Assembly: GCF_024758005.1 (NCBI RefSeq)
Contig: NZ_CP103288.1
Coordinates: forward strand, 3,534,001-3,598,000
Direction of reading: 5' to 3'
DNA length: 64,000 nucleotides
DNA from: Pseudarthrobacter sp. NS4
GTDB taxonomy: Bacteria > Actinomycetota > Actinomycetes > Actinomycetales > Micrococcaceae
The notes beneath the pieces are model-generated. The model was not told the origin of the DNA. It worked only from the letters and a program-made list of their open reading frames with translations, and did not search any database. The translations under genes and the position numbers were made by a program. This document shows, in pieces, positions 50,812 through 52,669 of this stretch (position 1 is its first letter; every line of letters begins with the position of its first letter).

Positions 50812-50888
<77 letters not shown>

Positions 50889-50893
50889 TAACG

Positions 50894-51002: not shown

Positions 51003-51030
51003 CAGCCCCGGAGCAGATGCTCCGGGGCTG
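51003..51030 (-). terminator. hairpin terminator after the small secreted-peptide gene
   Basis: A 12-bp perfect stem CAGCCCCGGAGC / GCTCCGGGGCTG with loop AGAT. It lies 27 bases after the stop of the minus-strand peptide gene. Confidence 0.8.
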
Positions 51031-51057
51031 CTGTCGCCTCCTGTTATGAGGAAGCTT

Positions 51058-51273
51058 TTACATCGGGTCAGGCCAGTTACCGGTGTAGGTGGTGTAACTC
51101 TTGTCGTCTTTATCCTTGGAAGGCTTTGACATAGGGTCCGGCCAGTTGCCGGTCCTTGCTACAGATACACCTTCGGCGTCGGCAATGGAACCCGCAGACA
51201 GGACGGCCGGAGCCGCAGCAGAGAAAGCCAGGGCCCCTGCCAGGGCGGCCGCGGCTGCAATCTTCTTCAACAT
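51058..51273 (-). CDS. small secreted peptide precursor with repeated octapeptide TGNWPDPM (candidate signal peptide precursor)
   Basis: A 71-residue protein. Residues 1-27 form a Sec signal peptide (LKK, then a run of Ala/Leu ending ...AAAPAVLSA). The octapeptide TGNWPDPM occurs at 41-48 and again at 64-71, where it forms the exact C-terminus; the spacer SKPSKDKDDKSYTTY is polar and charged. GAGGA lies 9 bases before the ATG, and a perfect hairpin follows the stop, so it is a complete monocistronic gene. It is divergent from an XRE-TPR regulator with a shared 10-bp dyad. Arrangement and repeats resemble Phr/PapR/SHP-type pheromone precursors; function is inferred only. Confidence 0.7.
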   Translation of the reverse strand: MLKKIAAAAALAGALAFSAAAPAVLSAGSIADAEGVSVARTGNWPDPMSKPSKDKDDKSYTTYTGNWPDPM

Positions 51274-51345
51274 ATAAGTTCCTCAATACGAGTCGGATTC
51301 GTTACAAAGCCAGCACTGTCCTTGTTGACATACATTGTAAAATGT

Positions 51346-51377
51346 TTTCCACAGAGGCTGTCAAGCTTCTGTGGAAA
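51346..51377. promoter_or_regulatory. 10-bp dyad operator candidate between peptide gene and XRE-TPR gene
   Basis: TTTCCACAGA (51346-51355) and TCTGTGGAAA (51368-51377) are exact complements with a 12-base spacer. On the minus strand a -35-like TTGACA (51364-51359) and -10-like TACAAT (51339-51334) with a 19-base spacer flank the left arm, so a bound regulator would sit inside the peptide-gene promoter and also cover the region just upstream of the regulator start. Confidence 0.65.
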
Positions 51378-51403
51378 GAAATGTTCGGAAAGGAGGAAAA
51401 CCC

Positions 51404-52669
51404 GTGGGCAACGGATTTGGGGAGAAGCTCCGGGCGGAGCGGCTTGAACGTGGGCTCACGCAGGCCGAGCTCGGCAAGGACCTGTACTCCCCCAGCTATA
51501 TCTCACTGCTCGAGACTGGCCGCAGGGAACCGACCGCGGAGGTGATCGACGAGTTGGCGAAGAGGCTGGAGCTGGCGCCGAAAGCGCTGGAGGCCTGGAG
51601 CCAGCCCATTACCGTCAGCGACGCAGAATATGTTCTGGCAGGGCTGTACGCACGCCAGGCCTGGGACCTCAGGGATTACCCGCTGGCGGCGAGCCACGCA
51701 GCCACAGCGGCAAAGATCGCCCTGGAAGGAAAAAACACCAGCGCGTGGTGGAACATGTCCTACATGCAGGCGGAGTGTCTCATGAAGCATGGCGACCTGC
51801 AGGAGTGCCAGGACATCATCGAGCGCCTGCTGGAACATCCCATGGCAACGGAATCGGTGGGTCTGGGTGTTCGCGCCAGGCAAATGCTCGCCACCGTGTG
51901 CCAGCGTCAAGGACAGTTGTCCATGGCCGTGGACTACGCGCAGGAAGCGATGAGACTGTCGCAGCAGCTGCCCAGGAATTCAACAATCATCGTCGGTGCC
52001 CTGCGGGTCCTGATCGGCGCCTTGGCTGAGACCGGCCGACTGGACGAAGCCTGGGCCTCGTGCCAGGACCTGCTCGCCCGGGTGGATGAGAATTCGATGT
52101 CGCAGCTTGCAGGCGAGGTGGCCTGGGTAGTCGGGAATGTCGCCTTTATGCGGCACGACTACGCCGAAGGGGTCAAACATCACGAACGGGCAGCCAAGCT
52201 TCTGTCCCCCGCCAACGACATAGAGCTCTGGGCCCGGTTCAATAAAGCCTCGGCCGCAGTGCGTTTGTCATCAGGCATCGTTGAACCCGAAACTCTTTCC
52301 TCCATCGAGCGCGCCGAGCTGGCGTTCTCGATCGTGGGCGGGACTAAGAGCGACGAGCTGGAAGTCGCCTTTATTCGCGCCCGGTGGCTGTACCTGACCG
52401 GGGACATTGTTGCCGCCGTCGAAAAGCTGCGGGAGATCCATGCTGAACGCAGCGCCCTTGCCAAGCACACAGCCGGGGAAGTGTCGCTCCTGCTGGGCAA
52501 ATCCCTCAAGGCAGCAGGCGAGCCCGAAGAAGCCCTGGTGCATCTGGAAGAAGCGCAGAAAGCCTTTAGCGCCGCAGGCGCCGGGGACCGCGTCCAGCAG
52601 GCAATGGACGCGGTCCTGGAAATAAAGCTGGCGCAAAAGCGCGCGGCAGCCGCCGCGAAAGCCAGCTAG
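51404..52669 (+). CDS. XRE-family HTH regulator with TPR domain (RRNPP-like)
   Basis: A 421-residue protein. An N-terminal HTH (about residues 4-58, LRAERLERGLTQAELGKDLYSPSYISLLETG) is followed by helical TPR-like repeats to the C-terminus (for example MLATVCQRQGQLSMAVDYAQEAM and EVSLLLGKSLKAAGEPEEALVHLEEAQ). This is the architecture of Rgg/PlcR/NprR/PrgX-type peptide-binding regulators. GTG 51404 is preceded by AAAGGAGG; a GTG 11 codons upstream falls inside the dyad. Divergent from the TGNWPDPM peptide gene. No peptide importer (Opp) is in the window. Ligand not known. Confidence 0.82.
   Translation: MGNGFGEKLRAERLERGLTQAELGKDLYSPSYISLLETGRREPTAEVIDELAKRLELAPKALEAWSQPITVSDAEYVLAGLYARQAWDLRDYPLAASHAATAAKIALEGKNTSAWWNMSYMQAECLMKHGDLQECQDIIERLLEHPMATESVGLGVRARQMLATVCQRQGQLSMAVDYAQEAMRLSQQLPRNSTIIVGALRVLIGALAETGRLDEAWASCQDLLARVDENSMSQLAGEVAWVVGNVAFMRHDYAEGVKHHERAAKLLSPANDIELWARFNKASAAVRLSSGIVEPETLSSIERAELAFSIVGGTKSDELEVAFIRARWLYLTGDIVAAVEKLREIHAERSALAKHTAGEVSLLLGKSLKAAGEPEEALVHLEEAQKAFSAAGAGDRVQQAMDAVLEIKLAQKRAAAAAKAS

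Follow-up and report, generated by a model that had tools for sequence, protein, structure and literature searches.

A candidate tryptophan-proline peptide-pheromone pair in Pseudarthrobacter and its relatives

The locus

The 64-kb stretch of DNA from Pseudarthrobacter sp. NS4 analysed here (the window; contig NZ_CP103288.1) contains a gene for a small secreted-type precursor that carries the octapeptide TGNWPDPM twice, and this gene faces, divergently, one for an XRE-type regulator with a tetratricopeptide repeat (TPR) domain. We propose, with high confidence, that the two form a peptide-pheromone pair that would work like the RRNPP systems of the Bacillota. The precursor side of the locus consists of the following features.

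51058..51273, minus strand: putative pheromone precursor gene, 71 aa, start ATG, stop at 51058-51060
51193..51273, minus strand: Sec-type signal peptide region, residues ~1-27, read from the sequence by eye
51130..51153, minus strand: internal TGNWPDPM copy, residues 41-48
51061..51084, minus strand: C-terminal TGNWPDPM copy, residues 64-71, the end of the protein
51280..51284, minus strand: ribosome-binding sequence GAGGA, just upstream of the open reading frame (ORF)
51003..51032, minus strand: GC hairpin past the precursor, a possible terminator, from fold prediction

The ORF translates as MLKKIAAAAALAGALAFSAAAPAVLSAGSIADAEGVSVARTGNWPDPMSKPSKDKDDKSYTTYTGNWPDPM, and the 71-residue length, the two octapeptide copies and the good ribosome-binding sequence reported in the initial annotation are all present. 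Three synonymous differences separate the two copies (ACCGGCAACTGGCCGGACCCTATG and ACCGGTAACTGGCCTGACCCGATG). The gene had also been credited with its own terminator; a strong GC hairpin does follow the stop, but its tail is poor in T and a terminator scan did not score it. A small secreted peptide ORF beside the receptor is more than chance, as our small-ORF detector found 0 of 622 in control stretches of the window.

51404..52669, plus strand: XRE-TPR receptor/regulator, 421 aa, facing the precursor divergently
51416..51595, plus strand: XRE helix-turn-helix (HTH) domain, residues 5-64, from a domain profile match
51614..52576, plus strand: TPR superhelix, residues 71-391, from a domain match and a structural model

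The receptor likely starts at the GTG at 51404, with AAAGGAGG upstream, rather than at 51371, because orthologue alignments begin there. Both domains of this annotated neighbour were found by profile (HTH_31, E 3e-11; TPR_12, E 2e-10), HTH_31/HTH_3 falling within residues 5-64. In an AlphaFold2 (AF2) model with a mean predicted local distance difference test (pLDDT) score of 86, successive TPR helix pairs have their first helix at residues 112-129, 152-169 and 194-210, and we take these first helices to be the inner ones. The modelled fold resembles Rap, NprR and AimR, and the receptor profile matches PlcR over residues 4-208 (E 3e-7), with matches to Rgg (residues 1-92) and ComR lying mainly within the HTH; a single-sequence search with the receptor found no named RRNPP member. 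The locus shows features that define RRNPP systems, namely a TPR receptor, an XRE-type HTH at its N-terminus and an adjacent exported-type precursor with a C-terminal peptide.

Conservation of the pair and selection on the peptide

The initial annotation had staked the pheromone idea on conservation of the octapeptide and of the gene pairing in relatives, and both are conserved. The regulator is found in all 37 genomes of the genus that were examined, NS4 included, and in 37/37 it faces a small secreted ORF that carries the peptide. The same holds for all 80 named relatives that were kept as the best 80 of 329, every one of them an Arthrobacter, a Pseudarthrobacter, a Paenarthrobacter or a Micrococcaceae bin; a strict pattern recognised the precursor in 78 of these 80, and the remaining two also carry the gene, one of them truncated after the first copy. 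Used as a database query, the precursor matched 319 proteins; of the 120 listed, those with a name are mostly called hypothetical or low-complexity.

The 114 distinct precursor genes comprise four with one copy of the peptide, 69 with two, 22 with three and 19 with four, and in 111 the protein ends exactly with the last copy (L077, L180 and L192 are the exceptions). Gly, Trp and both Pro never vary across the 284 copies; Asn is retained in 279 and Asp in 281. All copies within a precursor share the same seven-residue core in 109 of the 110 multi-copy precursors, and the eighth residue is identical between copies in 104 of the 110, while the DNA of the copies differs in 105 of the 109 with a shared core. 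In 68 two-copy genes the ratio of nonsynonymous to synonymous polymorphism (pN/pS) is 0.10 for the last copy, 0.08 for the first and 0.19 for the signal peptide (first 25 codons), with 1.14 for the spacer, where the alignment is rough. The peptide copies are evidently held by selection: the same core despite differing DNA, together with the low pN/pS, argues that each copy is retained at the level of its residues, beyond the gene alone.

A few precursors depart from this pattern. That of L056 has a single degenerate copy, SGNWPYPV. In L180, L189 and L192 a stop follows the first GNWPDPM copy and the last copy is lost, next to a receptor that matches over its full length, and in L018, L083 and L186 a near-copy, GNWAD, precedes three GNWPDPM copies and may be a decayed or decoy repeat.

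Co-variation of peptide and receptor

Position 1 of the peptide varies among T, I, V and S and position 8 among M, A and V. The proposed check, whether octapeptide and TPR domain co-vary, gave an affirmative answer, with parallel switches on the receptor tree, and it points to two parts of the superhelix.

51782..51907, plus strand: receptor residues 127-168, with the columns that co-vary with peptide position 1 (127, 129, 132, 167 and 168)
51986..52009, plus strand: receptor residues 195-202, with three columns that co-vary with peptide position 8 (195, 196 and 202)

Ranked by background-corrected mutual information among 57 receptors, the top columns are 132, 167, 127, 168 and 129 for position 1 and 196, 202 and 195 for position 8, where A goes with I202 in 8/9 and with V195 in 8/9. 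When each of the 114 precursors is scored by its commonest first peptide residue, I-peptides are paired with M127, L132, H167, Q129 and G168 in 66/66 and V-peptides with I127, W132, Q167, Q129 and G168 in 31/31; T- or S-peptides are paired with H129 and R168 in 16/17, the exception being the degenerate L056. Only columns 127, 132 and 167, among 209 that vary, separate I from V completely. With the first helices taken as the inner ones, the co-varying residues would therefore lie at helix ends on neighbouring repeats.

Peptide position 1 changed 10 times on a receptor tree built leaving out 13 columns of the co-varying type. V and W132 shift together in 4/4 supported independent pairs, and I and H167 in about 5/6, with one pair undecided. 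The sisters L071 (I) and L075 (V) have receptors that differ at 18 residues, all within 127-187, and their DNA divergence reaches 22/60 in this segment versus mostly 0-8/60 elsewhere, with a second peak of 23/60 past the 3' end of the precursor; we read this pattern as local recombination of the specificity segment. A candidate link between receptor column 230 and peptide position 3 was weak, confined to two lineages, and was rejected.

The promoter element

Between the two genes the initial annotation had placed a TTGACA/TACAAT promoter for the precursor and an exact 10-bp dyad reaching into its spacer.

51325..51364, minus strand: conserved promoter and putative operator element of the precursor, TTGACA -35 (51359-51364), 19 bp, TACAAT -10 (51334-51339), 3 bp, TGTCAA (51325-51330)
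51346..51377, unstranded: exact 10-bp dyad, arms 51346-51355 and 51368-51377 (TTTCCACAGA/TCTGTGGAAA)

The promoter is present with a spacer of 19 bp, and a scan allowing spacers of 16-18 bp called none. The dyad is likewise real, but of 111 distinct orthologous intergenic regions a single one contains it, and we therefore take it for chance and reject it as the operator; what is conserved instead is another element. TTGACA, 19 bp, TACAAT and, after 3 bp, TGTCAA are kept between genera, and most of the remaining promoter sequence varies. With a pattern built from these same promoter sequences, all but one of the 138 XRE-type loci that have a secreted tryptophan-proline (WP) peptide contain the element (137 loci, 116 in the genus and 21 outside), the exception being L238; the 138 include L116, L118 and L119, which the ATG-only detector scored as peptide-less and which do have precursors. 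These 137 are every match on both strands of the scanned loci: the element is found in 0/50 XRE-type loci without a peptide, 0/13 leaderless loci and 0/31 loci with HTH-less receptors, and in 0/4580 shuffled upstream regions. The fact that it accompanies both the HTH and the peptide suggests that it is the operator of the XRE domain. Its TTGACA-to-TACAATG part is unique in the genome within 3 mismatches.

Related pairs in other Micrococcaceae

A search for short ORFs with NWPDP-like ends beside XRE-TPR genes in other Micrococcaceae, as had been suggested, yielded related x-x-W-P pairs across the family, and the system is much wider than the initial annotation proposed. Leaving aside L088-L096 and L106, nearly all of L084-L133 and L141-L143 have purC next to the receptor gene, and the precursors facing such receptors carry IGNWPDPM, VGNWPDA, PGIWPD, TGNWPN, VWIWPD, VGEWPH, VGDWPH or other repeats, some loci having none. 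The number of copies per precursor, 1-4 in the genus, reaches 8 in other genera. A start resembling an export signal, judged by hydrophobicity only, is present in 138/151 XRE-type loci with a peptide. On control stretches of the same loci the detector gave 3/964, all three themselves such precursors. In genus g53 (L254-L282) the XRE-TPR gene is instead faced by a leaderless ORF of 19-23 aa in 15/29 XRE-type loci, with a variable N-terminal part and little conserved except a final VG[ND]WPD.

Receptors without a partner also occur. In L109-L114, L117, L120-L133 and L141-L143 an XRE-TPR gene stands beside purC with neither peptide gene nor element found, and these may be orphan or eavesdropping receptors; the second XRE-TPR paralogues of genus g28 (L088, L090-L096) lack both a peptide and purC as a neighbour. 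At the set threshold only A304 and E359 of the conserved residues drop in peptide-less receptors, and N245 in the g53 receptors stands at 0.43 without a peptide versus 1.00 with one; a loss of conserved residues in receptors without a peptide is suggestive only.

A sister clade of receptors lacks the HTH, and its precursors end in or repeat GWWPN, GWWPD, IGDWPN or IDDWPH, a secreted WP precursor being found in 25/31 HTH-less loci examined. All 17 HTH-less loci of the genus (L034-L050) have a GGDEF-EAL gene close by, on either the upstream or the downstream side, and in 8/17 a histidine kinase gene (GAF-HisKA) is also near the receptor. Outside the genus, L137, L234, L235, L237 and L283 contain a GGDEF-EAL gene, and none was found within the fetched flank of L134, L135, L136 and L139. 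In L038 (1537-2604) an HTH-less TPR paralogue has its own WP precursor and the start of the GGDEF-EAL gene overlaps the receptor stop, and L137 (1-4800) has tandem HTH-less TPR receptor genes with a KVGNWPD repeat precursor right after the first.

Beyond the family

A class-wide receptor profile at E 1e-20 matched 11 of 394 genomes, seven of them outside the family. Among 35 Streptomycetaceae-like loci drawn from profile matches, relatives (17/81 genomes of one genus) and plasmids, 13 contain a small secreted ORF in which I-[DES]-W-P or I-G-W-P is repeated or forms the end, versus 0/350 simulated loci, with a motif chosen after the first examples had been seen and with two of the 13, L297 and L320, carrying the same protein. 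The detector found nothing in the other 22, among which L293, L295 and L321 do carry such a peptide. Examples are Streptomyces sp. NBC_00342 and NBC_01259 (four [ND]IGWP copies, WP_328698352.1), Kitasatospora sp. NBC_01266 (WP_329572843.1), and two proteins with a DVEWP end, WP_328973789.1 of Streptomyces sp. NBC_00239, ~2.3 kb from the receptor gene, and WP_158709179.1 of S. parvus, ~1 kb from it.

The plasmid search gave 40 records, all Streptomycetaceae, with identity <60%. On the Streptomycetaceae plasmids L297, L320, L300, L293, L295 and L321 an XRE-TPR gene lies near secreted "hypothetical" proteins with [ND]IGWP or DVEWP repeats, and SARP-type activator genes are upstream in L297, L320 and L321. 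A search of a phage collection gave no match, and carriage by phages or viruses was rejected, the 58 pattern matches in viral contigs including no relative. In the same order but outside the family, L240, L241 and L291 gave no peptide, and L239, from another family, has a secreted ORF with three VGGSWPT repeats at +1242, on the same strand just after its XRE-TPR gene.

Back in the window, a tRNA-like sequence (50813-50889, recognised by eye) lies between ABC exporter genes and the precursor; such exporter genes are present near some loci only, and the fetched flanks are mostly too short to tell.

Proposed mechanism and alternative explanations

The comparison favours a pheromone pair through conservation, selection on the peptide, pairing, co-variation, a shared operator-like element and the predicted fold; export, processing, import, binding, the direction of regulation and density dependence are steps that we infer. 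The precursor would be exported by Sec and trimmed to x-G-N-W-P-D-P-x peptides, the C-terminal copy requiring one N-terminal cut and internal copies two. The peptide could re-enter through an oligopeptide permease, which is possible only, the NS4 genome having 11 SBP_bac_5 proteins as candidate oligopeptide-binding proteins. It would bind the concave face of the TPR superhelix, where residue 1 of the peptide would lie close to the ends of A helices two and three (127-132, 164-168) and its final residue close to where A helix four begins (195-202), and binding would alter the action of the XRE domain on TTGACA-N19-TACAAT-N3-TGTCAA at the precursor's own promoter. Because the promoter spacer is long (19 bp), we lean slightly toward a positive feedback in which the peptide activates the promoter, rather than lifting a repression. 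The pherotypes, defined by T, I, V or S at position 1 and M, A or V at position 8, would change along with the receptor residues, at least one such change having apparently come about by local recombination.

Several observations weigh against this proposal. Sign tests on the switches give p 0.125 and 0.0625, with too few pairs for significance; among the pairings listed, other switches are weaker (T/S with R168 ~1/2, A8 with V195 ~2/3, M8 with I196 ~3/5 with an occasional opposite pair), and the L159 precursor, next to an I-type receptor, has some copies that begin with I and others that begin with T. The AF2 model predicts the HTH with low confidence (residues 1-27 and 58-64 <50 pLDDT), and the TPR superhelices of APPBP2, MalT, APC and LGN match the receptor as well as or better than Rap, NprR and AimR. 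No recognised peptide was found in 50/201 XRE-type loci, many with the receptor beside purC, and a genome-wide search at <=3 mismatches gave no further operator sites and hence no regulon beyond the precursor loop.

Part of the association is to be expected from a locus inherited beside purC, and since few independent switches can be counted, neighbourhood and co-variation might reflect shared descent only, a block passed on with no contact between peptide and receptor. Yet position 1 changed about ten times with the same receptor residues changing with it, the associated columns are few and clustered, and the amino-acid differences between L071 and L075 are limited to the 127-187 segment, which makes this account very improbable. 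We give hardly any credence to a secreted antimicrobial or surface peptide that is merely controlled by its neighbour: although the protein is small, secreted and repeated, and regulators adjoining bacteriocin genes are common, such a role fits poorly with the short invariant core, the residue-by-residue match to the neighbour's TPR domain and the pairing of HTH-less receptors with the same kind of peptide. It is also conceivable, if unlikely, that the peptide binds the receptor as a private read-out of the producer, a probe of secretion, protease or import, and not as an intercellular signal. Such a loop would fit with the precursor promoter being the only place in the genome where the element is recognised, and with the g53 ORFs, which end in VG[ND]WPD and have no export signal; the retention of an export-signal-like start in most peptide-bearing XRE-type loci, the multi-copy precursors and the pherotype switching speak instead for resemblance to intercellular systems.

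Read as a pheromone pair, the locus points to cell-to-cell signalling by peptides in a group, the Arthrobacter-related soil bacteria, where such signalling is not known. On balance we think it probable, with less confidence than for the pair itself, that the Actinomycetota have a large pheromone language of their own, in which peptides with a tryptophan-proline core (x-G-[NDWIE]-W-P-[DNH] in Micrococcaceae; [VI]-[DE]-W-P or [ND]-I-G-W-P in Streptomyces and Kitasatospora), released from Sec-type or leaderless precursors that are often multi-copy, are each matched to an adjacent TPR receptor, with XRE-type receptors acting on transcription, HTH-less ones with GGDEF-EAL on cyclic-di-GMP, and pherotypes arising by swaps of a receptor segment. 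If so, peptide quorum sensing would be opened up in a phylum of soil dwellers and antibiotic producers, with cousins in Streptomyces; the receptor code (127/129/132/167/168 with peptide position 1) would predict specificity-changing swaps, and the GGDEF-EAL-linked receptors suggest a route from a peptide signal to cyclic-di-GMP.

Comparison with known systems

Cytoplasmic receptors of peptide pheromones are described, in passages of PMC10075063, as a trait of the Bacillota, and the signals of the Actinomycetota as typically enzyme-made small molecules; in the same passages and those of PMC9765709 the RRNPP surveys cover Firmicutes and viruses and Firmicutes, respectively, with Actinomycetota outside that coverage. 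A literature search, with preprints and most subscription journals outside its reach, found no publication on the NWPDP peptide or the pairing. For an actinobacterium, a passage of PMC11303876 describes uptake of an oligopeptide by an ABC permease, the Streptomyces extracellular oligopeptide BLD261 being imported by BldK, and a similar uptake is part of our proposal. That this oligopeptide is linked to the I-[DE]-W-P peptides is speculation. To our knowledge the identity of the BldK signal is unsolved.

The RRNPP/RRNPPA systems (Rap-Phr, Rgg-SHP, NprR-NprX, PlcR-PapR, PrgX, AimR-AimP) are alike in having an adjacent exported precursor, a C-terminal peptide and a TPR receptor, mostly with an N-terminal XRE-type HTH (all but Rap), as in NS4, and the resemblance extends to the Rap/NprR/AimR-like fold and the profile match to PlcR. 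The NS4 pair differs in its place in the Actinomycetota, in the tryptophan-proline core of its peptide and in having no phage or viral match. Rap acts without a DNA-binding HTH, and the HTH-less receptors described here share this absence; they adjoin GGDEF-EAL genes and, in about half of the genus loci, a histidine kinase gene. Tandem copies are found also in Rap-Phr of phi3T and phi105, and for phi105 a passage of PMC11343458 reports identical internal and C-terminal copies under selection; up to eight copies are found in the other genera here. The leaderless 19-23 aa ORFs of g53 in turn recall ComR-ComS. ComR-ComS and some other systems use leaderless peptides, but the peptide here is a different one, and elsewhere the same receptor family uses Sec-type precursors.
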